A stretch of DNA of 28,474 bases, from IMG/VR virus record IMGVR_UViG_3300048597_000176, positions 1-28,474 of that record. One strand, given 5' to 3'. Both the position numbers and the translations under genes were made by a program. The DNA is from a virus. Position 1 is the first letter of the stretch. The number at the start of each line of letters is the position of its first letter. The notes below the pieces were generated by a model. The model worked only from the letters and a program-made list of their open reading frames with translations. It was not told the DNA's origin and searched no databases. Shown here in pieces: positions 1 through 26,880 of this stretch.

Positions 1-106
1 GTCATAGCGCGCCATCCGGTCGGCGCTGCCGTAGCGCGCCTCTAATTCAGCGCTCCAGGCATCGTCAGCGGCCTGAAAGCGGCGCATGGCTTCAAGTGCG
101 GTCATC
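1..106 (-). CDS. Small hypothetical phage protein, N-terminal 35 residues (truncated by window edge)
   Basis: The frame opens with ATG at 106-104 and runs off the left edge. The visible protein begins MTALEAMRRFQAADDAWSAE and is rich in Ala and charged residues, as expected for one long amphipathic helix. A clear AAGGAG Shine-Dalgarno lies about 8 nt before the start, so the gene is real although short. It lies downstream of the DUF932 gene on the same strand, with 86 nt between them holding a hairpin and a 17-bp repeat. I recall similar short proteins from alphaproteobacterial phage and plasmid early regions, but I know of no function. Confidence 0.6.
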
Positions 107-124
107 GTGGTTGCTCCTTGTGTG

Positions 125-141
125 GCCCGGCTGTCATCCGG
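125..141 (-). repeat. 17-bp direct repeat, copy 1, in leader of the small gene
   Basis: The sequence GCCCGGCTGTCATCCGG is identical to positions 1090-1106. Each copy sits just upstream of the ribosome-binding site of a minus-strand gene. The ends CCCGG and CCGGG can pair around a 7-nt loop, so in RNA it would form a small hairpin ahead of the start codon. A regulatory role is inferred from this position. Confidence 0.6.
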
Positions 142-161
142 GGAAGCTGGCGCTTCGGATT

Positions 162-180
162 GCAGCCGGTGACCGGCTGC
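162..180 (-). terminator. Perfect 8-bp hairpin between the two leftward genes
   Basis: GCAGCCGG, a 3-nt loop and CCGGCTGC form a perfect stem just after the stop of the DUF932 gene. There is no T-tract after it on the minus strand, so it may be a processing or 3'-end stability element, or a weak attenuator, rather than a classic intrinsic terminator. Confidence 0.4.
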
Positions 181-192
181 AAGGTCGAAACG

Positions 193-1068
193 TCAGGCGG
201 CCTTCAGCTCCTGCATGCGCTGCGCCAGCGTCCAGAGCGCGCGGTTAAGGGTCACATTGCCGTCGATGTTCTGCACCGGGCGGGTGGAGCGGCGCGCAAC
301 GGGCCGGCCCCTGTCATCGCGCTGGGTGTAGTCAACCCCGCCTTGCACAAGGCTTTCCTGCACCCTGTTGAAGGTGCGCCACAGATCGCTGCCGACATCA
401 TCGCGCCGGCGCGGGCTGAGAAGCTGGCGCGGCTGCACCGGCGCGGCCTCATCCCAGCGCAGCTGGCTGGCGGCCTCTGCGAAGGCGTCAGCCTCGGAAG
501 GCCTCAATTCAATCTGGCGCATGTCCTGCGCAGCGATTGCGGCCTGCTTGGTGTCGTCAACGATGCGATAGGCACCCTCAATGACCTGGTGCACGATGTT
601 GCCCTTGTGCGGGATGCGCAGGCCCTGAAGCTCGCCAGCGCCGACAATCAGGCCATTGGAACAGACCAGCCGGAACATGCCGGCCATGAGCTGATAGCTG
701 CTGGTGCCGTCATGGCTGTTGATCAGGATGACCTCGCGGAAGCTGTCGCCCACCATGACATCACCCTGCTGGCGCAGCCTGATCATGTGCTTGGTGAAAG
801 CGCGCTTTTCTGCATCCCCGGACCCGCCCTGCCGGACCTCATAGGGCTGGAACCCTTCGCGCTGAAGGCCGGCCAGCACGTCGCGCGTGGGAATGTAGGT
901 GTAGCGATCGGAGCGGCTGGTGTGCTTGTCGATGGCCAGCACGGACGGCGCGGCGCGCTCGATCTGGTCAATCGTCAGCGGCTCGGCGGTGCGGCTGCGC
1001 AGGATTGCGCCACCACGGCCAAACTTGGCCATGCGGGTGGAATTGAAGGCGCGGATATCGTGAAACAT
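193..1068 (-). CDS. DUF932 family phage/plasmid protein
   Basis: A 291-residue protein with an AGGAG ribosome-binding site about 9 nt before the ATG. It resembles the DUF932 family: an early block with APSVLA and RYTYIPTRDVL, a central block with LINSHDGTSSYQLMAGMFRLVCSNGL, then a helical C-terminal third. Family members occur widely on phages and plasmids, and their biochemical role is not established. The gene is transcribed leftward, away from the late genes, together with the truncated gene at 1-106. It therefore probably belongs to an early or middle operon that continues outside the window. The upstream 645 nt are non-coding. Family assignment is by pattern recognition. Confidence 0.8.
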   Translation of the reverse strand: MFHDIRAFNSTRMAKFGRGGAILRSRTAEPLTIDQIERAAPSVLAIDKHTSRSDRYTYIPTRDVLAGLQREGFQPYEVRQGGSGDAEKRAFTKHMIRLRQQGDVMVGDSFREVILINSHDGTSSYQLMAGMFRLVCSNGLIVGAGELQGLRIPHKGNIVHQVIEGAYRIVDDTKQAAIAAQDMRQIELRPSEADAFAEAASQLRWDEAAPVQPRQLLSPRRRDDVGSDLWRTFNRVQESLVQGGVDYTQRDDRGRPVARRSTRPVQNIDGNVTLNRALWTLAQRMQELKAA

Positions 1069-1089
1069 GGTCTTGGCTCCTGGTTGGTT

Positions 1090-1106
1090 GCCCGGCTGTC
1101 ATCCGG
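1090..1106 (-). repeat. 17-bp direct repeat, copy 2, in leader of the DUF932 gene
   Basis: Exact copy of 125-141, lying 22 nt upstream of the DUF932 start and just upstream of its AGGAG ribosome-binding site. The shared position in two separate leaders suggests a common control element, such as an operator or RNA hairpin. The alternative is duplication of a leader together with its gene. Confidence 0.6.
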
Positions 1107-1172
1107 TGACCCTTACTTATGTGACCGGGAACGAAAGCGCAAGAGGCCAGCGGCAGACGCGCAAAGCTTCCG

Positions 1173-1192
1173 GCCCGATCCGGCGGGCTTTT
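1173..1192 (+). terminator. Short GC hairpin followed by four T
   Basis: GCCCG (1173-1177) pairs with CGGGC (1184-1188) around a 6-nt loop, and TTTT follows. It would stop rightward transcription, although the gene to its left runs the other way. It may therefore block antisense reads or form a structured part of the DUF932 leader. Looser outer complementarity between 1148-1172 and 1189-1219 could extend it. Confidence 0.35.
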
Positions 1193-1292
1193 GCGCCTGG
1201 CGCTGCCGTCTGGCTGGCATCGGAGCCGGGCTAAGTGCTTGAAATCGCGCGACCTGTGCGGCTCTGCTGTGACAGAGTGTCGCAAGCTGTAT

Positions 1293-1312
1293 CCGAACCC
1301 GAACCCGAACCC
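1293..1312. repeat. Three tandem copies of CCGAAC
   Basis: The hexamer CCGAAC occurs three times in a row, followed by CC, inside the non-coding region. It is too short for a CRISPR or minisatellite. It could be a protein-binding array, but this is not established. Confidence 0.5.
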
Positions 1313-1340
1313 TCCGGCATCAGGGAAGGTTAGGCCGCGC

Positions 1341-1373
1341 CAAAGCTTCCACCTTCCAGCCTGTGCCTATGGT
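1341..1373 (+). promoter_or_regulatory. Putative phage late promoter upstream of the terminase operon
   Basis: CAAAGCTTCCACC (1341-1353), 13 nt, then CTATGGT (1367-1373). The same arrangement with the same spacing occurs at 7605-7637 before the capsid gene, and a variant occurs at 20609-20640 before the tail fibre gene. TATGGT would serve as the -10 hexamer, with GCTTCC at the -35 position. The transcript would carry a leader of more than 300 nt into the small terminase gene. The match is seen in the sequence; promoter activity is inferred. Confidence 0.5.
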
Positions 1374-1416
1374 GGCTGATGGCCTTCGCGGCGCGAGGGG
1401 TCAGGGGAAGGGTGAT

Positions 1417-1675
1417 CTGTTACACGCTGTTACGGCAGCGGCCTCGCAAGTGTAACGCTGTAAGCCCTTGAATTAGCAGGCAAATTCCGGAAGTGTTCAC
1501 GATGTTACGATGTTACGGCATTTTGCCTCATATGTGTGTGCTCGCGTGTGCGCGCGCGTGCATCATGCAAGACGTAACAACGTAACAACGTAAACACTTT
1601 GAGAATTCAATATATAAATCAATATCTTAGGGCGTTACGCATAAAGGTCTGCAAGCGTAACGGGCCGTAACAGCG
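1417..1675. repeat. Array of GTTAC/GTAAC motifs in both orientations
   Basis: Copies lie near 1418, 1430, 1452, 1504, 1512, 1574, 1582, 1590 (variant GTAAA), 1634, 1656 and 1667. Two blocks are tandem with an exact 8-nt period: GATGTTAC twice at 1501-1516 and CGTAACAA twice, plus a CGTAAACA variant, at 1573-1596. The two blocks have opposite orientation and flank the alternating purine-pyrimidine tract. This looks like an iteron-type or multi-site protein-binding region. Confidence 0.6.
1529..1563. other. Alternating purine-pyrimidine tract (Z-DNA-prone)
   Basis: Positions 1529-1541 and 1543-1563 alternate pyrimidine and purine almost without break, first as TG steps and then as CG/TG steps. 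Such tracts can adopt left-handed DNA under negative supercoiling. It lies between the two opposing motif blocks and next to an AT-rich stretch. Confidence 0.55.
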
Positions 1676-1713
1676 CAGACCAATAAACAACCAAGGCTGA
1701 ACCCGTTTCGATC

Positions 1714-2406
1714 ATGGCAGACCGGCCCGGCATCAAGACAGAGCTTCGCGAACGGGCTGTTCACCTGAACAGCGGACCCGCCGGCCATGACGCGGCAGCC
1801 CCCCCTGTCCAGCTGCGGCTCGATGGTGGCGAGGACGTGCCGCCGGCGGTGCCGGCGCTGACCGGGGAAGGTGGCCGCAAGGGTGGCAGGCCGCCGGGCT
1901 CCAAGAACCTGCGCGCCGGCAAGCTGGCCGCGTTCATCCTGGAGACTGAGGGTGATCCGCTGGTCGATCTGACCCGGTTTGCCCGGCGCGATGTTGGCGA
2001 CCTGGTGCGCGAGCTTCAGGCCGTCAGCAAGGCGACCGGCATCAAGGTGCTGGGCAAGAACCAAAGCCTCTTGGACATCGTGAAGGAACAGCGCGCGGCA
2101 GCCGAAGCGGTGTTGCCCTATCTGCACCAGCGCATGCCGCTGCTGGTGGAAATGGACAAGACCAGCCGGCCCGTGCTCATCGTCGGCACGCCGACTGCCG
2201 ACCAGGTGGCCGTTGCGGCCTCGACCCTCGGCCTCGATCTGCGCCAGGCGCTGAAGCCGGCCAGCGCCAGCGCTCCGGAAATAGAGACGGAATATCAAGA
2301 CCTTAGCGAGGACATGGCCGCACCGTCGCCTAGTGGTGCGTCGCCTGATATGGCGCAAGTCATTGATAATGCGAGGGAAAGCGATGGCCAAGCCGATGAT
2401 CACTAA
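1714..2406 (+). CDS. terS: Putative terminase small subunit
   Basis: A 230-residue protein directly upstream of the large terminase, the usual place for the small subunit, which recognises phage DNA and starts packaging. The first ~55 residues are low-complexity. Then comes a basic patch GGRKGGRPPGSKNLRAGKLA (about residues 50-69), a motif common near the N-terminus of small terminase-like and DUF5681-like proteins. A helical middle follows (about 70-150) that could form the oligomerisation core, then an acidic tail. The start at 1714 has only a weak ribosome-binding site, and GTG or TTG alternatives are possible. The role rests mainly on gene order and the basic motif. Confidence 0.6.
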   Translation: MADRPGIKTELRERAVHLNSGPAGHDAAAPPVQLRLDGGEDVPPAVPALTGEGGRKGGRPPGSKNLRAGKLAAFILETEGDPLVDLTRFARRDVGDLVRELQAVSKATGIKVLGKNQSLLDIVKEQRAAAEAVLPYLHQRMPLLVEMDKTSRPVLIVGTPTADQVAVAASTLGLDLRQALKPASASAPEIETEYQDLSEDMAAPSPSGASPDMAQVIDNARESDGQADDH

Positions 2407-2639
2407 TCAGCTGCCGACATCGTGCCGGGTGATCGGCTGGCCGGCGCTGGCTGGTCTGCCGGCAAGGGGTGGGTGGCCTCTTGCTGGCTGCCGGCCAGAG
2501 GGTGGCCCCCGGAAATCGCACGCGCTCGCCTCATTCAGGGTGCCGTCCCTCACGGCAAGCCCTGTTCGGGGTGCTTTTCAAGGTAAGGGTCAGCGGCGGA
2601 ACAAGAAACCGCTGGCGGGGGTCGGGGGTGCGGCCAGCC
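2407..2639. other. Gap between the terminase genes, no clear gene
   Basis: These 233 nt are open in the frame of the large terminase from an ATG at 2469. The translation is Arg/Gly-rich with no family resemblance, so I treat them as non-coding. GC-rich partial repeats of GGCTGG and CCGGC occur near 2440-2510. A cos or pac site would fit here, but I see no diagnostic sequence. Confidence 0.4.
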
Positions 2640-4232
2640 ATGGTTGACAGTGCCGATGCCCTGATCCCGGCTCCGCTCGATCGTGATCTGGCTCCACCGG
2701 ACCAGCGCGGTTACGAGATTGCGCCGCCGGGCTCCTTCAACATCACGCAGTTTACGCCGCAGGGGCCTGTCGGTGCGGCCTTCCTGGCGGACAAGCATCA
2801 TCTGATGCGCGGGCTGATGGGGCCTTGGGGCTCCGGCAAGACGAACCTTGCGTTCATGGATATGTTCCAATGGGCGGTGACTGCGCCGGTCTGTGTCGGG
2901 GCCAAGGAAGGGCAGCGGCTGTTCTGCGCGTGCATCGTGCGCGACACCTACCGGAACCTCGAAACCACGATCAAAAGCTGGCACGCCTGGGCGACGCCGC
3001 AGGAAGGCAACTGGACCGGCGGCAGCGGGGACAGGCCGGCGACGCACCTGCTGGAGTATGACCTGATCGACGGCACGCGCCTGATGCTGCGCGTCGAGTT
3101 CCGCGCCATCGGCGACAAGAAGGTCGAGGACGCGATGCTGGGCGCGGAATTCAACTGGCTGTTCCCGAACGAGCTGACCACGCTGCCGATCGATATCATC
3201 ACCTACGGGCTTGGCCGGCTGGGGCGCTATCCGCACCCAAAGGAGCTGGGCTATGACCAGGCGAAGATCGCGGCGCGTCCGAACCGGATCGTTACGGACT
3301 TCAACGCGCCGGAAGTCGGCACGCCGGTCTACAAGTATTTCGAGGAAGAATTACCGGCGACGGCCAAGCTTTACCGGCAGCCGGGCGGGCGTTCTCCGAT
3401 GGCAGAGAATGTCAGGAACCTGCCGCCAAACTACTATGCCAACCAGATCACGGCCAATGCGTCGCGGCCATGGTGGATCAAGCGGTTCATCGACAACGAA
3501 TACGGGTTTTCGCGTGCGGGCCTTCCGGTGTTCCAGGAGGAATACAGGGATGAGCTGCATTGCGCGGATTTCGGCGTGGAGGATCTGCCGATCTATCTCG
3601 GGATTGACGGCGGCATGGGCCTGCACCCTGCCATGGTGGTGCTGCAATGGTCGCCGAATGGCTGGATCAAAATTCCGCTGAGCCACTTTGTCGGTCGTTG
3701 CGGGCCGGCGCGGTTTGCCGAAAGCGCCAAGGTCATGCTGGCGCAGCATTGCAAGGGTCTGCCGATCGTCGGGGCCTTTGTCGATCCGAGTGCCTTCCGG
3801 GGCTACGATGCGGAAAGCGGCGAAACGTCCTTCGTCGAAGTGCTGTCGCGGGCGATCAATGCGCCGATCCAGCCTTGCTGGACGAATGAAATCGGGCCGC
3901 GCCTGGATGGCTGGCGCAAGCCGCTGGGGCGCATGGTGGGCGGCGTGCCGATGCTGCGCGTGTCGAGCCGGTGCTTCTCGCTGCGTCGCGGCCTCAACAG
4001 CGAATATCGCTACAAGATCGACAACAACGGCGCGCTGACGCAGGATGTGAAGCCGGACAAGACCGAGGCCTCGCACGAAATGGATGCCGGCGGCTATGGG
4101 CTGCTCGGCATGCTGGGGCCGGAGTTCATCCTTCACGACAAGGATGCGAAGCCGCGCTACGTGGCGCTGGGGAACAAGGGCAGCAAGCGCGGCGGCGGCA
4201 GCGGCCAGATGCGAACGGATTTCAACCCATGA
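2640..4232 (+). CDS. terL: Terminase large subunit (packaging ATPase and nuclease)
   Basis: This motor protein pumps DNA into the prohead and cuts it. The ATPase half shows Walker A as GPWGSGKT at residues 61-68, and a Walker B-like segment in which a hydrophobic strand ends in NEL (GAEFNWLFPNEL). The nuclease half shows RNase H-like acidic residues: D323 in LGIDGG, D382 in FVDPSAF, and D482 in SHEMDAGGYGLLG. I chose the ATG at 2640 (530 residues) because the 57 codons before it look non-coding and the protein then starts at the usual distance from Walker A. No strong ribosome-binding site precedes it. The stop overlaps the next start (ATGA). Confidence 0.93.
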   Translation: MVDSADALIPAPLDRDLAPPDQRGYEIAPPGSFNITQFTPQGPVGAAFLADKHHLMRGLMGPWGSGKTNLAFMDMFQWAVTAPVCVGAKEGQRLFCACIVRDTYRNLETTIKSWHAWATPQEGNWTGGSGDRPATHLLEYDLIDGTRLMLRVEFRAIGDKKVEDAMLGAEFNWLFPNELTTLPIDIITYGLGRLGRYPHPKELGYDQAKIAARPNRIVTDFNAPEVGTPVYKYFEEELPATAKLYRQPGGRSPMAENVRNLPPNYYANQITANASRPWWIKRFIDNEYGFSRAGLPVFQEEYRDELHCADFGVEDLPIYLGIDGGMGLHPAMVVLQWSPNGWIKIPLSHFVGRCGPARFAESAKVMLAQHCKGLPIVGAFVDPSAFRGYDAESGETSFVEVLSRAINAPIQPCWTNEIGPRLDGWRKPLGRMVGGVPMLRVSSRCFSLRRGLNSEYRYKIDNNGALTQDVKPDKTEASHEMDAGGYGLLGMLGPEFILHDKDAKPRYVALGNKGSKRGGGSGQMRTDFNP

Positions 4233-4783
4233 TCGATCTTCCCAAGACCCGCAACAAGGTGGTGCTCGAACCTGTCACGGCAGGCCAGGCGCTCGATCTG
4301 GTGACCCGGTTTTTCGGCGACTATGCGCCAGAGGTGCACGCGCTGGCTCCGCAACTGGCCGTGTCGCGCAACCTGCGGGCGCTGGCGATCAACAATTACC
4401 GGGTCATGCTGGGCGGGGTGGTGCCGTTGTCGAACGGCTCGCACGAGGGCTGGTTGCTGATCGACCCGCACAAGACGTTCACGCCATGCCTGATGATCCT
4501 CGCCGTGCGGCGGCTGCGCTTCGCGCTCGATGAGGCGGCGCGTGGCCGCCATGTGATCGTCCACACAAGGACCGATGCTGGCCGCCGGCTGGCCCAATGC
4601 TTCCACATGCGCAGGTTGCGTATGATCCGCGTCCACGGACACGAGCTGGAGGTGTGGGATCATGAGCTTCATGAAGGGACTGATGCGCGCGTTCACGCCG
4701 CCGAAAAGCGGGGCGCAGAAGGCGGCGATCCAGCAGGCCGGCGCACAGAATGCGGCGGCGGTCGAGCGCCAGCGCCAGGCTGA
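4229..4783 (+). CDS. GNAT-fold protein resembling T7 gp13 (DUF2833)
   Basis: A 184-residue protein translationally coupled to the large terminase through ATGA. The first ~145 residues look like a small acetyltransferase fold: strands with NYRVMLGGVVPL and EGWLLIDPH, a long helix, then RHVIVHTRTDAGRRLAQCFHMRRL. This resembles phage T7 gp13-type proteins, which have a GNAT-like fold and are needed for virion morphogenesis. The last ~40 residues overlap the next gene in another frame. They use few G/C third bases (about half by hand count, against a much higher share in the overlapping gene), so they look like unconstrained read-through. Family call is by recognition, without a search. Confidence 0.6.
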   Translation: MIDLPKTRNKVVLEPVTAGQALDLVTRFFGDYAPEVHALAPQLAVSRNLRALAINNYRVMLGGVVPLSNGSHEGWLLIDPHKTFTPCLMILAVRRLRFALDEAARGRHVIVHTRTDAGRRLAQCFHMRRLRMIRVHGHELEVWDHELHEGTDARVHAAEKRGAEGGDPAGRRTECGGGRAPAPG

Positions 4784-4883
4784 GCGCGAGAATGTGAGCC
4801 TGCGCAAGGCGTCCAGCCGGGGCGGTTCACCCTTGCTGGGCTTCTTCAACGATCTTCTCCCCGGCAAGGCGAAGCTGGGCTGA
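4662..4883 (+). CDS. Small hypothetical virion-region protein
   Basis: A 73-residue protein starting MSFMKGLMRAFTPPKSGAQ, with a short amphipathic N-terminus, a Gln/Ala-rich helical centre and a C-terminus ending in LLPGKAKLG. GGAGGTG lies about 7 nt before the ATG. Its first 122 nt overlap the end of the GNAT-like gene in a different frame, and its stop overlaps the portal start (TGATG). Small proteins of this style often sit between terminase and portal in T7-like phages of Alphaproteobacteria; their role is unknown. Confidence 0.65.
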   Translation: MSFMKGLMRAFTPPKSGAQKAAIQQAGAQNAAAVERQRQAERENVSLRKASSRGGSPLLGFFNDLLPGKAKLG

Positions 4884-6481
4884 TGGCGAAGCCAGAGACA
4901 GTGCAGGTCGATGTGCGCCAGCTGCGCGAGCGCAGCAATGAGGCGTGGATGAAGCGCCGGCTATGGGACCCGATCCTGGCCGACATTCATCGCTACTGCA
5001 TGCCCTGGCTGCGGCAGGACGTGCTGCCGGGGCACACCGACCAGCTGTATGACAGCACGGCGGTTCATTCCTCGATCCGCTTCGGCAACAGGCTCCAGAA
5101 CGATGTGCTGCCACCGGGCCAGCGCTTCTGGGATTTGGGGGCCGGCCCGCTGATCACGGATGAAAACCAGCGCAGCGCAACCAATCTCGGGCTCCAGACC
5201 GTTTCCGGCATGGTGCATGCGCAGCTGAACGGCTCCAACTTCGAGGTGGCCAGCGGCGAAATGTGCCTTGCCCTCGGGCAGGGCACGGCGGCCATGCTGG
5301 GCCTGCAACGCAAGGACAAGCGCGGCATCGGCTGGATGACGGTTCCGATCCAGGAGCTGGCTCTGGCCGAAGGCCCGTTCGGCGATGTCGAGGGTGTTTA
5401 CTGGAAGCGCAAGTGGCAGGCCCGGCACCTGCCGCGCCTGCTCGAAGGCGCGACCTTCCCGAAGTATATCAAGGCGCTGATCGACGACGACAAGACCAGC
5501 CGGCAGCTGGTCGAAATCCGGCAGGATTGCGAATGGGATGCCGACCGGCGGCTGTGGGTGTTCACGGCCTACAGCGACATGGACGATGAACCGATCCGGG
5601 TGCGGACCTACCGCAAGACCCGCTGGATCACGCCGCGTTTCCTGAAGATGCCGGGTGAAGTCATGGGGCGCGGCCCCACCATGCTGGCGCTGCCATCGGC
5701 CAAGACGCTGCACACCACGATGGAGCTGATCCTGAAAAGCGCCGCGCTGGCGCTGTTCGGGGTTTACCTGTGGCGGGATGATGGCGTGTTCGATCCGGAC
5801 ATGGCGCATGCCCGGCCCGGTGCCATGTGGAAGGTGGCCTATACCGGCGGGCCGATGGGTGCGCCGATCGTGCCGCTCCAGGTGACGCGCAACTTCGATA
5901 TTTCCAACATCATCCTGGCCGACCAGCGCGAACAGGTGCGGCTGGCCCTGTTCGATGAAAACCTGCCCGATCTGCGCGAAAGCGTGCGCAGCCCGACCGA
6001 AATCACCGAACGGCTCAAGCGCAGCTATCGCGACCATGCCGCGTCCACGGGCCGGCTGATCCGCGAGCTGGTGACGCCGGTTGTGGAGCTGGTCATCGAT
6101 ATCATGGAGGAAAACGGCCAGCTGCCGACCAAGATCGATATCGATCAGCTGGGCGTCCAGCTTCAGCTAACATCGCCGCTGGCGCGGGCGCAATCGCTCG
6201 AAAACATCCAGCGCATTGTCGAGGGCCACCAGATCGTCACGGCGCTCGAAGGGCCGGAAATGGCCAAGCTTTACATCGAAAGCGAAAGGGTTGTGCCCGA
6301 TGTCCTGCGCAATCTCGGCTGGCAGGAAGATCACATCACGCCGGCGGCCAAGCGCAAGCAGGCGATGGACGGGCTGGGCCAGATGATGGGCGCACAGATG
6401 GGCGCACAGGTCGCCAGTGAAGCCGCGCCGGCACAGGCGGCAGCCAGCCAGCCGCGTGCGCCGCTGAGGGCTGTCGCGTGA
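4883..6481 (+). CDS. Portal protein (T7-like head-to-tail connector)
   Basis: A 532-residue protein of the podovirus head-tail connector family (Head-tail_con type). It would form the 12-subunit ring through which DNA enters and leaves the capsid and on which the tail assembles. Family signs are an N-terminal helical region (ERSNEAWMKRRLWDP), then LYDSTAVHSSIRFGNRLQNDVLPPGQRFWDL near residues 50-85, a central segment RTYRKTRWITPRFLKMPGEVMGRGP, and the long C-terminal helix region with SPTEITERLKR. The length is normal for the family. The C-terminal ~30 residues are Ala/Gln-rich. Start and stop both overlap neighbours by 1-4 nt, indicating one operon. Confidence 0.92.
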   Translation: MAKPETVQVDVRQLRERSNEAWMKRRLWDPILADIHRYCMPWLRQDVLPGHTDQLYDSTAVHSSIRFGNRLQNDVLPPGQRFWDLGAGPLITDENQRSATNLGLQTVSGMVHAQLNGSNFEVASGEMCLALGQGTAAMLGLQRKDKRGIGWMTVPIQELALAEGPFGDVEGVYWKRKWQARHLPRLLEGATFPKYIKALIDDDKTSRQLVEIRQDCEWDADRRLWVFTAYSDMDDEPIRVRTYRKTRWITPRFLKMPGEVMGRGPTMLALPSAKTLHTTMELILKSAALALFGVYLWRDDGVFDPDMAHARPGAMWKVAYTGGPMGAPIVPLQVTRNFDISNIILADQREQVRLALFDENLPDLRESVRSPTEITERLKRSYRDHAASTGRLIRELVTPVVELVIDIMEENGQLPTKIDIDQLGVQLQLTSPLARAQSLENIQRIVEGHQIVTALEGPEMAKLYIESERVVPDVLRNLGWQEDHITPAAKRKQAMDGLGQMMGAQMGAQVASEAAPAQAAASQPRAPLRAVA

Positions 6482-6936
6482 CCGATCTGCTTGATCAATT
6501 CATGAAGTCCAACGTCGCGCAATTCGACGCGGCGGTGAAGATGGAGCGGGAGACGCTGGCGCGCATGTGGCGTGCCGTGGCGGCGACCCCTGCGGGCCAT
6601 CATGTGCTCACGGCGCTGATGCGCGAGCACATCATGAAAGTGTCGTTCGACGTGAACCTGACCGGTCAGTCGCTCGAACAACTGGCCATGTTCGGCATCC
6701 ACCGCGATGCGCAGAAACAGCTGGTTGGCAATATCCTCGAATTGGCCGGCTTCGTGCCGGGTCCATCACCAACACCGGAGCAAGCCCATGACAGAAGCAG
6801 CAGCAACGACCCAGGCGACGCAGGAAGCGGCAACGCAGCAGGCGGCGGGGACGCAGGCAGGACAGGCAGCGACGACAACGCCGGCGGCGGGGACACAGGC
6901 GGCGACGGGGACACAGGCAGCCTCCTTCTCCCTTGA
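6478..6936 (+). CDS. Hypothetical protein with Gly/Asp-rich tail overlapping the scaffold gene
   Basis: A 152-residue protein that starts with GTG in a GTGA overlap with the portal stop. Residues 1-103 are helical (MTDLLDQFMKSNVAQFDAAVK...) and have no family I recognise. From about residue 104 the protein becomes a Gly/Asp/Ser/Asn-rich chain that overlaps the first 149 nt of the scaffold gene in another frame. Both frames keep a similar high share of G/C third bases (about 70% by hand count), because the DNA itself is built of repeated GGGGACRCAGGC-like units. It may be a head-assembly helper; function unknown. Confidence 0.65.
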   Translation: MTDLLDQFMKSNVAQFDAAVKMERETLARMWRAVAATPAGHHVLTALMREHIMKVSFDVNLTGQSLEQLAMFGIHRDAQKQLVGNILELAGFVPGPSPTPEQAHDRSSSNDPGDAGSGNAAGGGDAGRTGSDDNAGGGDTGGDGDTGSLLLP

Positions 6937-7597
6937 GGCCCTGCCGGAGCACTACCGGGCCAAGACGGCAGACGAGGCGCTGGCCAAGGTCTGGCCGGCG
7001 CTCGATGGCTTTATCAAGCAGCAGGCACAGATGGGGTCCAGTGTGGCCTCACCTGATGCCTACCAGTGGACGCCGCCGGAAGCGCTGGCGGCGCGGCTGG
7101 GCGACGTATCGAAAGACCCTGAAGTCGCTGTGATGCGGAAGGCGGCATTCGATGCCGGGATCACGGACAAGAAATTCGCCACGATGATGACCAGCGTGGT
7201 TGAGCAGCTGGGCGCGCGGGCTGATGCCAATGGCGACGCGGCGATCGTTCCGGAAACCAATGCCGAGATCAAGGCCGGCAACGTGGCCTGGATCGAGAAC
7301 ATGGCGCAGCAGGGCAAGCTGTCGGACGTGGCCAGGGCTGACCTCCAGATGCTGACCTTCTCGAAGGGCGGTTCGGAAATCATCGCCATGCTCCAGGCCA
7401 GCCTGACGCCGGGCTTCGCGGTCGCGCCAGCCGGCGGGCAGACAGCCGGATCGTTCGGCGTCACGGCTCCGATCGATGCCACATCGGCCAAGTCGCTGAT
7501 GAGCGACAAGCGCTACATGACGGATGGCCCGAAGTATGATCCGGCCTTCCGCAAATGGGCCGATGACCAGATGGACAAGTTCGCGCCGAAGGCCTGA
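6788..7597 (+). CDS. Putative capsid assembly scaffold protein
   Basis: A 269-residue protein directly before the major capsid gene, the standard position of the scaffold in T7-like phages. Residues 1-45 are a repetitive Ala/Thr/Gln/Gly chain. The middle (SLEALPEHYRAKTADEALAKVWPALDGF, then SPDAYQWTPPEALAARLGD) is the typical scaffold pattern of 'proline-acid' linker and helices. The C-terminus (KYDPAFRKWADDQMDKFAPKA) is a charged amphipathic helix, like the capsid-binding helices of scaffolds. A GGAG ribosome-binding site precedes the ATG at 6788. An in-frame opening from 6707 exists but overlaps the previous gene and lacks support. Confidence 0.75.
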   Translation: MTEAAATTQATQEAATQQAAGTQAGQAATTTPAAGTQAATGTQAASFSLEALPEHYRAKTADEALAKVWPALDGFIKQQAQMGSSVASPDAYQWTPPEALAARLGDVSKDPEVAVMRKAAFDAGITDKKFATMMTSVVEQLGARADANGDAAIVPETNAEIKAGNVAWIENMAQQGKLSDVARADLQMLTFSKGGSEIIAMLQASLTPGFAVAPAGGQTAGSFGVTAPIDATSAKSLMSDKRYMTDGPKYDPAFRKWADDQMDKFAPKA

Positions 7598-7604
7598 AAC
7601 CGGC

Positions 7605-7637
7605 CAAAGCATCCACCAGCGCCGCCTCGCTTATGGT
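7605..7637 (+). promoter_or_regulatory. Putative phage late promoter upstream of the major capsid gene
   Basis: CAAAGCATCCACC (7605-7617), 13 nt, then TTATGGT (7631-7637). It matches the site at 1341-1373 in 12 of 13 positions of the first block, with identical spacing. The predicted start near 7644 would give the capsid gene its own transcript with a leader of about 110 nt. It lies between stop and start codons, so coding constraint does not explain the match. Confidence 0.55.
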
Positions 7638-7655
7638 TCACACCACTGAGGCGGC
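7621..7655 (+). other. 8-bp inverted repeat overlapping the capsid promoter
   Basis: GCCGCCTC (7621-7628) and GAGGCGGC (7648-7655) are perfect inverse complements separated by 19 nt. The arms bracket the -10-like hexamer. It could act as a weak terminator for the upstream message or as a binding site at the promoter. No T-tract follows. Confidence 0.35.
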
Positions 7656-7754
7656 GATCCGCCGATGGCCGGGCGATCAAGGAAACGCGATCCCGGTGCA
7701 TCGGCGGCGATCAAAAACCTCGCTTTCACCGTTCATGAAACCGAGGATCACACC

Positions 7755-8657
7755 ATGCAGAACCCAGCACTCTGGTTCCAGACCAAGTTTGCACCCAACG
7801 TCACGCACCGCTTCAACGAGACGGGCTATGCCCTGAAGCAGGCCACGACTGGCGGCGAGCATCTTGGGGCTGACGCCTATCGCTTCTACCTTCAGGCCAA
7901 TGGCGAGGCGCAGCTGCGCGGCGGCAGCGGCAAGTATTCGTTCCAGTCCACCGCGCAGTCCAGCGTCGATATCAAGGCCCTGACCTATGACTTTGCGGTC
8001 AAGGTGCGTCAGGACGACATTCGCCGCATGAGCGTCAATGCCGTGGATGCGCAGGCCAAGGCTGCCGCCAATGGCTGCGCCATGCGTGCCAACCGGATTG
8101 TGCTCGAAACCCTGCAAAATGCGGCAATCGGCACAGGCAACGTCGTCGGGGCCTTCGCCAACGACTTCAAGATTTCCGATGCCGTGCGCGTCAAGGAAAT
8201 CATGGACGAGAACGGCGTGCCGGATGATGGCGGGCGCTTCTGCGCCATTCGCGCCAACTGGTGGAACATCATGTCGCTGGCGGAAATCTTCTCCAGCTCG
8301 GATTACACCGGGCCGGCGATGCCGCTGATGGGCAATGGCATGATGCGGACCTGGAACGGCATCCACTGGCTGTGCTTCCCCAACAAGCTGATGCCGACCA
8401 CGGGCGCTCCTGTCGGTGTCACCAAGCCGGGGGTCAATGTGGAAGGCCTGGGCTTTGCCTGGCACCGCGATGCTGTCGGATCGGGCACGATCAACAACGG
8501 CGAGCTTCGGACGGAAATGAACAAGATGTCCGACGAGCCCGTGCACACGCTGGTCACCGAGTTCGATATGGCCTCGGCAGCGCTCCAGCTGGAAGGCATC
8601 GTCCATATCCGTGCCAAGTCCGTGTCGGCCTACCCGACCGCGACCACGGCGCTCTGA
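7755..8657 (+). CDS. Major capsid protein
   Basis: A 300-residue protein with a GAGG ribosome-binding site before the ATG at 7755. It lies between the scaffold and tail tubular genes, as in T7-like phages. The sequence is that of an HK97-fold capsid protein: a beta-rich N-terminal arm (ALWFQTKFAPNVTHRF), a spine-helix region around AKAAANGCAMRANRIVLETLQ, a central domain with CAIRANWWNIMSLAEIFSSSDYTG, and a C-terminal strand region ending VHIRAKSVSAYPTATTAL. The exact capsid family is not certain from sequence alone. An in-frame upstream ATG-less extension to 7665 runs through the promoter region and is unlikely to be translated. A strong hairpin follows the stop. Confidence 0.85.
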   Translation: MQNPALWFQTKFAPNVTHRFNETGYALKQATTGGEHLGADAYRFYLQANGEAQLRGGSGKYSFQSTAQSSVDIKALTYDFAVKVRQDDIRRMSVNAVDAQAKAAANGCAMRANRIVLETLQNAAIGTGNVVGAFANDFKISDAVRVKEIMDENGVPDDGGRFCAIRANWWNIMSLAEIFSSSDYTGPAMPLMGNGMMRTWNGIHWLCFPNKLMPTTGAPVGVTKPGVNVEGLGFAWHRDAVGSGTINNGELRTEMNKMSDEPVHTLVTEFDMASAALQLEGIVHIRAKSVSAYPTATTAL

Positions 8658-23884: not shown

Positions 23885-23993
<109 letters not shown>

Positions 23994-24060: not shown

Positions 24061-25296
24061 TCACGCTGTTCCAGCGCCGCCCTGTGCATCGAACCAGGCC
24101 ACCATCTTGGCAACCGCTGCGTCGGCCCGTTCGGGGTGATCGGCCAGATAATGTTTCAGGATCGCATGGATGCTGGCCAGCTCATGGCCGGTGATGCTGG
24201 CGACCTCAAACAGGTCGCAGCCGGCGCGGACCAGCCATGTCACAGCGGTATCACGCAAGTCCTGATCGCGCAGGCTGGCGACCGATGCCATGGGCCGGAT
24301 CAGCCAGCTGCCATCCTTGGCCGGGATGCCGTGCGCGGCGGCATGGCGGACCTCGGCGAACTCGTGCCGGTAGGTGTGTTCGTTGTAGGCCTGGCCGGTG
24401 CCGGGATGCACGACGATGGTGCCGGCGATGACCGGAACGGCAAAGGCCTGCTTGACGGCGCGGCTTTCCTCCAGCGCGGCCAGCAGGCGCGGGCTCTTGG
24501 GGATGGCAATCATCTTGCCGGTTTTCGACGTGCGCAGCGTGATCCGGGTTTCGGTGCGTCCGCCTTCGATCATGGCCAGCCGGTCGTTCTGGCGCTGCCC
24601 GGTCCATAGACCCAGCTCGATGGCAATCGCCATCATCGGCTTGCCCATGGCGCGCGCCGTGGCCAGCAGGTGCTCCATTTCCTCGGGGCTGCCGGCTCGC
24701 ACGCGCGGCGCAGGCTTCTTCATCCTGAGGCGCGAACAGGGGTTTTCCGGAAGGCGGACCGTGCCACGGTTCATGGCGTAGCCATAAGCGGCGCTCATGG
24801 TCCGGATCACGCCACAAGCCGTGGCCAGCCCTCGCTTGCGGCGCAGGCGCTCATACAGCTCGAACGCGATCTGCCGGGTGACGGCCTCTGCCGGTGCGCC
24901 ATACAATTCCGGATCGAAGGTCAGCAGGACGCGGGCCTTCTGCCGATAGTCGCGCACCGTGCGGGCCGGTTCGTTGTCGGCCTCCTTGGTCTGGCAATAG
25001 TCCTCGATCATCTTGCCAAGGCTGAGCCAGGCCTTGCGCGGCCTGATGCCGCCGGCGAGGCGCTTGCCGGCCTCGACGATGCCCCTGCGCCGGGCAATCT
25101 CCGGCTCGATGACATTGGTGATGAAGCTGCGGGCTTCCTCGGCGGTGAACCAGCGGCCATCCGGGTGGCGCAGTGCCTTGCCCTTCAGCTTCAGTTTTGT
25201 GTGGGCTGGCGAGGGACAATAGCGCGGCTGGTCGCCGGCCTTGCCGCCAAAGCGGATGAATTCGATCCTGATGGTGGCCACGGGCTTGCTCTCCAT
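24061..25296 (-). CDS. int: Tyrosine recombinase integrase
   Basis: A 411-residue integrase next to the tRNA-derived attP. The N-terminal ~90 residues are arm-binding type and 95-185 is a SAM-like core-binding domain (MIEDYCQTKEADNEPARTVRDYRQKARVLL). The catalytic domain has R235 (WTGQRQND), K258 (TSKTGK), R348 (QDLRDT), H371 (TGHE) and the nucleophile Y383 (KHYLADHP). The first histidine of the usual HxxR box is Q345, a known variant. It inserts the phage into, and with a directionality factor excises it from, the tRNA-Lys gene. No strong ribosome-binding site is seen. It is the last gene of a leftward operon with the two small genes upstream. Confidence 0.93.
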   Translation of the reverse strand: MESKPVATIRIEFIRFGGKAGDQPRYCPSPAHTKLKLKGKALRHPDGRWFTAEEARSFITNVIEPEIARRRGIVEAGKRLAGGIRPRKAWLSLGKMIEDYCQTKEADNEPARTVRDYRQKARVLLTFDPELYGAPAEAVTRQIAFELYERLRRKRGLATACGVIRTMSAAYGYAMNRGTVRLPENPCSRLRMKKPAPRVRAGSPEEMEHLLATARAMGKPMMAIAIELGLWTGQRQNDRLAMIEGGRTETRITLRTSKTGKMIAIPKSPRLLAALEESRAVKQAFAVPVIAGTIVVHPGTGQAYNEHTYRHEFAEVRHAAAHGIPAKDGSWLIRPMASVASLRDQDLRDTAVTWLVRAGCDLFEVASITGHELASIHAILKHYLADHPERADAAVAKMVAWFDAQGGAGTA

Positions 25297-25848: not shown

Positions 25849-25879
25849 AAATGCATATGCATTTCAGGCGGGTTGTCAA
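25849..25879 (-). promoter_or_regulatory. Integrase-operon promoter with overlapping operator
   Basis: On the minus strand TTGACA (25879-25874) and TATGCA (25857-25852) are 16 nt apart. A perfect 16-bp palindrome AAATGCATATGCATTT covers 25849-25864, across the -10 box. The same palindrome core lies in the early promoter at 26602-26615. The predicted start near 25845 leaves only a few bases before the ATG at 25842. Repression by the CI-like protein is the natural reading. Confidence 0.65.
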
Positions 25880-25897: not shown

Positions 25898-26563
25898 CTA
25901 ATGCATGGCGGCGCGGTGCCTGAACGTGCTGACGACAACACCCTTGACGATGATGTTCTGGTCATCGACCACGAGGGGCCGCGCCATCTGGCCATTGGCC
26001 GGCCCGGCCAGCAGGAACGGCGGTTGGAGGATGCGGAACAGGGTGTCAGCCCGGTTGCGCGGCCAGTCATAGAGCTGGGCGCAGACCAGATCGCCGGGCT
26101 GGGCACGCTCGTTCAGATCGACCAGAACGATGTCGCCGCTGCGCCAGCCAAGGGCTTCGAGCGCATGCGTGCGGAGCACGAACGGGGCCAGATGCGGGCG
26201 CGACACCTGCGCTGTGCGCAGGAAATCGGCAAAAACATCGTCCTTTTCGGCCATGTCGGGCTGCCAGTCCACGGCATCGGGCTCGTAAAAACCCGCAGCA
26301 GGCGGACGCGGCGCGGCGATCGGGCCGGACGCGACCAGGCCGACGACGCGCGCGATCGCATCACGGGTGCGCGCGCTCATGTCGTAGGGGTGATCGGGGT
26401 TGTGCAGGAACCGGGTGAGCGTGGTCTGGTTGACGCCGGCGCGGCGGGCAAGCTCCGTCGCTGTCCATCCGCGTTCGCTGAGGATGCCCTTCACCCACTC
26501 CCTGTCTGTGTCGCGCTGATCGCCCATGACGGGCAATGTGCGCCGGTAGGGCACATGAAGCAT
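25898..26563 (-). CDS. CI-like phage repressor with a LexA/S24-type C-terminal domain
   Basis: A 221-residue repressor with an XRE-type helix-turn-helix (WTATELARRAGVNQTTLTRFL) near residues 32-52. The C-terminal domain has the S24/LexA layout: an Ala-Gly pair in RPPAAGFY that could be the cleavage site, then RTHALEALGWRSGDIVLVDL, and an AQPGDLV strand. Where LexA-type proteins have the catalytic Ser-Met, this protein has Ala-Leu (THALEAL), so self-cleavage looks lost. I use ATG 26563, 10 nt after AAGGGA and inside the predicted transcript. An ATG at 26527 fits homologous N-termini equally well. It divergently faces the Cro-like gene across an operator region and would maintain lysogeny. Confidence 0.82.
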   Translation of the reverse strand: MLHVPYRRTLPVMGDQRDTDREWVKGILSERGWTATELARRAGVNQTTLTRFLHNPDHPYDMSARTRDAIARVVGLVASGPIAAPRPPAAGFYEPDAVDWQPDMAEKDDVFADFLRTAQVSRPHLAPFVLRTHALEALGWRSGDIVLVDLNERAQPGDLVCAQLYDWPRNRADTLFRILQPPFLLAGPANGQMARPLVVDDQNIIVKGVVVSTFRHRAAMH

Positions 26564-26585
26564 CAAGCAGTTGTCCCTTTGGCTC

Positions 26586-26622
26586 TTGACGACAATGCAT
26601 TAATGCATATGCATTCCATGCA
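26586..26622 (+). promoter_or_regulatory. Early promoter/operator region of the lysis-lysogeny switch
   Basis: Rightward: TTGACG (26586-26591), 16 nt, TATGCA (26608-26613), the same spacing as the integrase promoter. Leftward for the repressor: TTGTGC and TAATGC about 17 nt apart on the minus strand. Three overlapping palindromes fill the region: ATGCATTAATGCAT (26595-26608), AATGCATATGCATT (26602-26615) and TGCAT-TCC-ATGCA (26610-26622). They would serve as operators for the repressor and the Cro-like protein. Confidence 0.7.
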
Positions 26623-26646
26623 CAAGTGATTTGCAGGTGATTCGCC

Positions 26647-26880
26647 ATGGGCCATCAGGCCACCAGCCCGCCATGCGGGAAGCCGTATCTCGACGATCTG
26701 CTGGACCGTGCGCGCCGGCTGGGCGTGAGCCGTGCCAGGCTGTGCCGGCGGGCGGACGTTCACGAGGTCACGCTGGCGCGCACGATTGCCGGCAAGACCA
26801 AACCCAATGTCAGCACGCTCGAAAAGCTTTCGGGCGCGCTCGATGCCATCCAGGCCGAACGGAGCAAGGGCGATGAATGA
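26647..26880 (+). CDS. Cro-like XRE helix-turn-helix regulator
   Basis: A 77-residue protein, first gene of the rightward early operon, divergent from the repressor. Residues 14-65 form an XRE-type domain (LDDLLDRARRLGVSRARLCRRADVHEVTLARTIAGKTKP, then STLEKLSGAL). It is nearly all DNA-binding domain, as expected for a Cro-type antagonist acting at the same ATGCAT operators. GCAGG lies about 8 nt before the ATG. Its end overlaps the next gene by 8 nt. Confidence 0.78.
   Translation: MGHQATSPPCGKPYLDDLLDRARRLGVSRARLCRRADVHEVTLARTIAGKTKPNVSTLEKLSGALDAIQAERSKGDE

Follow-up and report, generated by a model that had tools for sequence, protein, structure and literature searches.

The array of short repeats located between positions 1417 and 1675 of the viral record IMGVR_UViG_3300048597_000176 very probably serves a temperate podovirus-like phage as its origin of replication, at which a primase-helicase would act as initiator on GTTAC iterons. 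An iteron origin with an architecture resembling that of the SaPI/PICI elements is the best-supported reading of this stretch. The window, i.e., the whole stretch of DNA that was analysed, corresponds to the complete IMG/VR virus entry of 28,474 bp. An origin had been proposed at this place in the original prediction, made from the letters of the window, and the proposal is supported here by evidence that comes from comparison rather than from the record alone: arrays built on the same plan are mostly found, in phages and plasmids, at the 3' end of a primase-helicase gene, their motif follows the tree of the initiators, and the switches of motif coincide with a divergence of the initiator C-terminus.

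To our knowledge, the site where replication starts has yet to be mapped for most temperate and metagenomic phages. A characteristic layout near the initiator gene, together with a motif that tracks the C-terminal domain of the initiator, would let such origins be read directly from sequence. The same tracking would predict replicons that compete for initiators, and would supply ready-made orthogonal origin/initiator pairs.

Gene Content of the Viral Record

The left end of the record carries a DUF932 gene on the minus strand (193-1068), a TerS-like gene on the plus strand (1714-2406), which is assigned by position only and matches no family, and a TerL gene (2640-4232) which, like the portal and head genes also present in the record, matches phage homologues. 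Towards the right end, the integrase gene (24061-25296) and the CI-like repressor gene (25898-26566) both occupy the minus strand, and a Cro-like gene occurs at 26647-26880. The TerL and portal proteins are distantly related to those of BcepC6B and of the Pelagibacter phage EXVC031P (31% for TerL against the BcepC6B TerL). Possessing its own TerL, portal and head genes, the record does not correspond to a satellite of the PICI type that needs a helper phage for its virion proteins. No match to an initiator was obtained in the record by tblastn with 35 primase-helicases. Since the early genes head towards the right end and the DUF932 gene lies near the left end, the replication genes of this phage are probably located in the part missing from this incomplete record.

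No DNA relatives were found in the phage collection with positions 1-8000 of the record as a query, nor were any TerL or portal relatives found in viral contigs, or any TerL relatives in genome contigs. The search with DUF932 yielded seven relatives, three of which (L006-L008) carry arrays made of other motifs; in the remaining four, no array was judged convincing. Among named phages, the nearest relatives of the DUF932 gene include many jumbo phages of enterobacteria. Other features of the record include the 12-nt palindrome ATGCATATGCAT, which flanks the CI-like gene on both sides (about 25851-25862 and 26603-26614) and likely represents repressor operators, and a stretch at 23921-23963 that looks like the second (3') half of a tRNA gene, with a terminal CCA. 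As the latter lies beside the integrase gene, it is probably an attachment site; no complete tRNA is predicted there by ARAGORN. A GAACCC-like hexamer is repeated three times in tandem at 1295-1312, shortly before the array.

Structural Organization of the Array

The array is housed in a 645-bp gap separating the starts of the DUF932 (minus) and terS-like (plus) genes, so that, as had been anticipated, no gene accounts for it; neither an Rfam family nor a tRNA was detected in the array stretch. Ten exact GTTAC/GTAAC motifs start at positions 1419, 1429, 1452, 1504, 1512, 1574, 1582, 1634, 1657 and 1667, and two degenerate neighbours, GTTCAC (1495-1500) and GTAAAC (1590-1595), complete the set, in good agreement with the "about eleven" copies originally counted. 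Nine further copies are scattered over the rest of the record. The cluster exceeds chance expectation: when the whole record was shuffled 1000 times with a first-order Markov model, the maximum number of motifs per 260 bp was one (678 shuffles), two (313) or three (9).

The repeats are arranged in a mirrored layout, made of outer pairs followed by inner blocks with a period of 8 nt that face each other across a 57-bp core. On the left side, the site search identified two outer iterons TGTTAC on the plus strand (1418-1423 and 1428-1433), accompanied by a GTAAC in reversed orientation (1452-1456, minus). The left inner block (1495-1516, plus) associates the degenerate GTTCAC with two GTTAC (1504-1508 and 1512-1516), and the right inner block (1574-1595, minus) consists of two GTAAC (1574-1578 and 1582-1586) and the degenerate GTAAAC; the tandem blocks of 8-nt period and opposite orientations reported earlier are thus recovered on both sides (1504/1512 and 1574/1582). 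The right outer part comprises a GTTAC on the plus strand (1634-1638) and a minus-strand pair (1657-1672) made of GTAAC (1657-1661) and GTAACA (1667-1672). Two inverted repeats are nested around the core, a 35-nt imperfect one (83% complementary) with its arms at 1483-1517 and 1573-1607, and a 12-nt perfect one (100%) linking 1425-1436 to 1664-1675. Two oppositely oriented iteron sets accordingly surround a central region, as in the SaPI/PICI origins.

The core (1517-1573, orientation '+-'), which would be the first site to melt, contains an alternating purine-pyrimidine, Z-prone tract of 21 nt (1543-1563), the longest run of this kind in the record, preceded by a 13-nt run at 1529-1541. With 42% AT (p 0.14 against windows of the same length), the core is not AT-rich and departs in this respect from the SaPI/PICI central region. 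An easily melted AT-rich element does adjoin it, since, for window sizes of 30, 40 and 60 bp, the AT maximum of the record is always found at about 1570-1630, to the right of the core. The AT-rich block itself (1590-1630), which holds the 30- and 40-bp maxima, lies outside the inner iteron sets and inside the outer ones. The earlier claim that the motifs flank both the alternating tract and the AT-rich block therefore stands for the tract, which occupies the core, and has to be amended for the block, which, on the right side, separates the inner block from the outer repeats.

The cumulative GC skew of the record reaches its raw minimum at position 56 and peaks close to the right end, the array being at 1545, and a curve of this shape can also be produced by co-oriented genes. 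Among five other genomes, the detrended minimum falls at most about 1.2 kb from the array in two, MQ-4 and Acjo_20, and not in phi1422, S-H1 and BPP-1.

Distribution of the Arrays Among Phages and Plasmids

At least 120 stretches were pulled from viral contigs with the 14-base pattern TGTTACGNTGTTACG, derived from the array of the record, for which chance matches are expected at its length. At least eight sites within 260 bp occur in 73 of the 128 sequences examined, including the record and the 120 pulled by the pattern. Among these 73 array sequences, primase-helicases of three families are encoded at most 400 bp from the array: the Prim-Pol + AAA_25 family at 19 of 21 loci, the Zn-ribbon primase-helicase family at 19 of 19 and the Toprim + DUF5906 family at 4 of 4. 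The array usually starts at the 3' end of the primase-helicase gene. As a GTTAC pattern served to retrieve most loci, no special role is claimed for GTTAC itself; many other motifs occur in the sample based on the helicase, in which GTTAC nevertheless remains the most frequent label. For 28 of the 75 distinct arrays, the record included, the fetched stretch contained no helicase of the three families. Whole-record profile searches, covering 24 of these 28 array records and five DUF932 records, gave DUF5906 matches in 3 of the 29 and no match to the long-core or Toprim_3 profiles (0/29 for both); the AAA_25 profile gave only matches below the cutoff in 16 of those array records.

A second sample was assembled blind to the arrays. 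Helicases related to the AAA_25 type were collected with a protein profile alone, the best 80 of at least 585 confirmed relatives being retained, and an array was scored when the 420 bp at the end of the gene contained at least nine copies of one 5-mer, on both strands. Eleven of the 80 loci were devoid of flank; an array is present at 48 of the 69 testable gene ends, compared to 5.5% of 1149 control windows, and the other 21 fall under the threshold. The profile was partly seeded from array-bearing loci, and the rate of 48/69 applies to this AAA_25-type family and its near kin. The motifs of this sample include GTTAC, GGGAC(A), GGAAC and GGTAC, among others.

Among the named phages, the array directly follows the primase gene in the Bdellovibrio phage phi1422 (GTTAC), Caudoviricetes sp. 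MW202867 and Salicola phage CGphi29 (both GGGACA), Idiomarinaceae phage 1N2-2 (GGTACA) and Synechococcus phage S-H1 (GTTAGG/GTTCGG-like). It is located 5' of the primase gene in Acjo_20, about 1.6 kb downstream of it in the Serratia phage MQ-4 and further off in ZRG1 (CGTTAG); no array was detected near the primase-like gene of PY223 and Dolphis. Seven of the eight plasmids examined similarly possess an array at or near the end of the initiator gene, namely three Arsenophonus plasmids (L153, L154 and L155, with the motifs GGTTGTAA, GGTAACA and CATTACA) and plasmids from Atlantibacter, Proteus, Caenibius and Klebsiella; the Nitrosoglobus plasmid has none at its gene end. The three Arsenophonus plasmids encode sister initiators and carry three different iteron sequences at the same location, which may possibly let these related plasmids coexist.

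In BcepC6B and BPP-1, the genes are ordered primase, gap, terS, and the gap occupies relative to terS the position of the array in the record. Read by eye, both gaps show two short tandem repeats facing two others across an AT-rich core, where the detector gave only 4-6 copies. In BPP-1, this mirrored 2+2 repeat, of the TTTGCCTCG type, lies at 26607-26715 of locus L241, between the primase and terS genes.

Finally, four loci were retrieved from the species-genome collection with a four-block facing pattern modelled on the inner blocks of the record; in three of them, a gene matching DUF5906 ends beside or over the array. These are a Polaromonas locus (DUF5906 and FtsK_gamma), a contig binned as Nitrosopumilus (L245, 2833-3100), where a GTTAC array lies beside a gene for a 746-aa DUF5906 protein and a ParB_N/methylase gene, and a Spirochaetales locus with a weak DUF5906 match (E 0.009); no helicase was seen at the fourth, from Atopobiaceae. 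The helicase and ParB_N/methylase neighbours of L245 are those encountered in bacterial phages, and its archaeal assignment is that of a metagenome bin, so that either an archaeal virus or a mis-binned contig is possible.

Two Layout Plans

Of 75 distinct GTTAC arrays, originating from 114 loci, 58 could be parsed, and these follow two plans. The arrays associated with AAA_25-type helicases have cores of 13-27 bp (60 bp in one case), mostly a short palindrome; in 15 of 20, the core is preceded by GTAAC and followed by GTTAC. In contrast, those of the other two families have cores of 25-101 bp, preceded by GTTAC and followed by GTAAC in 16 of 20 (U test on core length, p 7e-7). The array of the record, with its 57-bp core, GTTAC before and GTAAC after, conforms to the long-core plan. 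From this core length and orientation, and from the DUF5906 matches at the four-block loci, we infer that the missing initiator of this phage belongs to the long-core class (Zn-ribbon/Toprim/Prim-Pol + AAA or DUF5906), more precisely of DUF5906 or Zn-ribbon type, and not to the AAA_25 type.

Twenty-four cores of the orientation seen in the record, its own included, reach at least 40 bp. An unusually long alternating tract occurs in 15 of them and an unusual AT-richness in 12, one or the other being found in 23 at an uncorrected p of 0.05 or less. The recurrence of the Z-prone core in these 15 arrays raises the question of whether left-handed DNA helps to open a natural origin.

Iteron Motif and C-Terminus of the Initiator

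On the tree of the initiators, on which 35 of the 43 labelled proteins were usable, the motif changes 8 times against 17.4 after shuffling, and none of 200 shuffles was as low. The C-terminal comparison was restricted to 52 initiators with a complete C-terminus and an array, after exclusion of 16 incomplete proteins and 12 devoid of array. It comprised 126 pairs with a body divergence of at most 15%, 10 differing in motif and 116 sharing it. All 10 motif-different pairs, drawn from three groups and not mutually independent, show a divergence of 19-44% over the last 120 residues against 2-13% over the body. Among the 116 same-motif pairs, the median divergence reaches 15% for the C-terminus and 11% for the body, and the C-terminus differs by more than 20% in 38 pairs, e.g., L230/L028 (29% against 10%). 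The tracking of motif switches by C-terminal divergence, read from sequence comparison, is thus suggestive rather than formal.

Hand-picked pairs illustrate the trend, with C-terminal and body divergences of 23% and 1% for L178/L179, whose motifs are GTTAC and GGTAC, respectively, and of 44% and 2% for L213/L201; none of five hand-picked same-motif controls displays a C-terminal excess. The DUF932 phages L006 and L008 differ by their iterons, TGGAA and TAGAA, respectively, and share an identical stretch of the AT-rich core; the last 62 residues of their Prim-Pol/DUF5906 initiators differ by 27%, compared to 6.9% elsewhere (p 4e-6). As presumed for the record, the initiator gene is located away from the array in both, at a circular distance of about 9 kb in L008 if this record closes. 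In the Arsenophonus trio, where the iterons also differ, only one pair out of three exhibits a C-terminal excess. Outside the DUF932 pair, joint swapping of a contiguous gene end and array could explain part of the C-terminal pattern.

The C-terminal region of the long-core family was modelled with a mean pLDDT of 86.5. The top structural match of the model is SaPIbov1 Rep (8tch, Z 4.6), which is too weak by itself, and it also matches PriRep1 (7pds) and the SCCmec Cch (5dgk), all three at a weak Z of 2.9-4.6; unrelated winged-helix proteins tie with them among the weak PDB matches, of which the best has a Z of 4.6. P4 alpha does not figure among these matches, an absence that carries no weight. 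By sequence, no PDB chain matched the long-core family profile at E 0.001 (best E 0.092).

Alternative Functions of the Array

The vicinity of the terminase genes makes a packaging (pac/cos) site, to which the small terminase encoded next to it would bind and start packaging, the main rival explanation. The terS-like gene (1714) and terL (2640) directly follow the array, and terminase genes occur a few kb or less from the array in many relatives. It is nevertheless an unlikely one, because the arrays do not occur only together with a terminase: arrays of the same plan exist on plasmids for which no terminase gene is listed, such as the 8.2-kb linear Arsenophonus plasmid L155 and the 9-kb Proteus plasmid (the plasmid gene tables being incomplete). 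In addition, the array of phi1422 abuts the primase gene, TerL being about 7.5 kb off, and the motif covaries with the C-terminus of the primase-helicase, which was the protein compared. In this particular phage, where the array separates DUF932 from terS and is not next to an initiator gene, it may all the same fulfil a terminase-linked role.

The position between divergent genes would also suit an operator, where a repressor or another regulator bound to the repeats would control the divergent DUF932 and terS promoters. A single weak sigma-70-like match occurs at 1599-1628, close to the shuffle mean (1 against 0.4). At most loci, however, the array comes after the 3' end of a gene, in L006 and L008 it is even located between the 3' ends of convergent genes, and the repressors of the latter two start almost identically in spite of their changed iterons, all of which leaves an operator very improbable. 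Least credible of all is a partition centromere or an incompatibility locus bound by a ParB-like protein: ParB_N/methylase genes accompany several arrays, but they are missing beside most of them, and the motif covaries with the helicase instead.

Proposed Mode of Action

If the array is an origin, its initiator would be a phage-encoded primase-helicase, acting in many copies, whose gene is absent from the incomplete record and whose C-terminal DNA-binding domain is predicted to contact the GTTAC iterons. Since the inner tandem blocks face each other, we propose that two helicase rings are loaded in head-to-head orientation, one at each side of the 57-bp core. The core would then melt, presumably at this very place, with the help of its alternating tract and of the AT-rich block next to it, and forks could depart in both directions. 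The outer pairs might raise the local concentration of the initiator or control its assembly.

On a broader and more tentative level, which we regard as rather less than an even chance, mirrored-iteron origins could constitute a general self-loading module, shared by phages, plasmids and perhaps archaeal elements and exchanged among unrelated classes of helicase, in which a swappable C-terminal domain would set the specificity and a Z-prone tract would replace the AT-rich element in the long-core members.

Comparison with Known Origins

No description of a mirrored array in phages was found in the literature searched, which covers few subscription journals. The initiators of the P4 alpha/pRN1 type resemble those associated with the arrays as fusions of a helicase and a primase with a C-terminal winged helix, and the pRN1 origin lies 3' of the gene; it consists, however, of a stem-loop without iterons (PMC4234260, available text). 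The same text relates that repeats were sought in BIP-1 and proposes a stem-loop rather than iterons as the origin. BIP-1 is nearly identical to BPP-1. BPP-1 and BcepC6B are kin to the record by their structural genes and share with it facing tandem pairs, within the order primase, array, terS; they differ from it by having only 2+2 repeats, different motifs and no outer pairs.

With respect to SCCmec, the C-terminal domain of the helicase Cch2 binds short direct repeats located 3' of its own gene, just three AAGTG repeats being reported and a mirrored array being absent in the available part of PMC7581432. According to the same part, the C-terminal domain of the SaPI/PICI and SCCmec initiators binds the repeats, and two hexamers are apparently involved.

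The closest parallel is offered by the SaPI/PICI origins, located 3' of the pri/rep gene, in which two sets of iterons surround an AT-rich site (PMC6092414, available sections). Two iteron sets likewise flank the presumed melting region in the array of the record, and in most other array-bearing replicons the presumed origin lies 3' of the initiator gene. The record differs in being a phage with its own virion genes and not a satellite, in the extra outer pairs of its array, in a core made of an alternating purine-pyrimidine tract where that of SaPI/PICI is described in these sections as AT-rich, and in an array that adjoins terS, with DUF932 as its other neighbour, and not directly the 3' end of an initiator gene. 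The PICI layout is stated, in the sections of PMC6092414 available, to occur in "no other known bacterial replicon"; against this statement, the arrays compared here suggest that the mirrored-iteron layout is common outside the PICIs.
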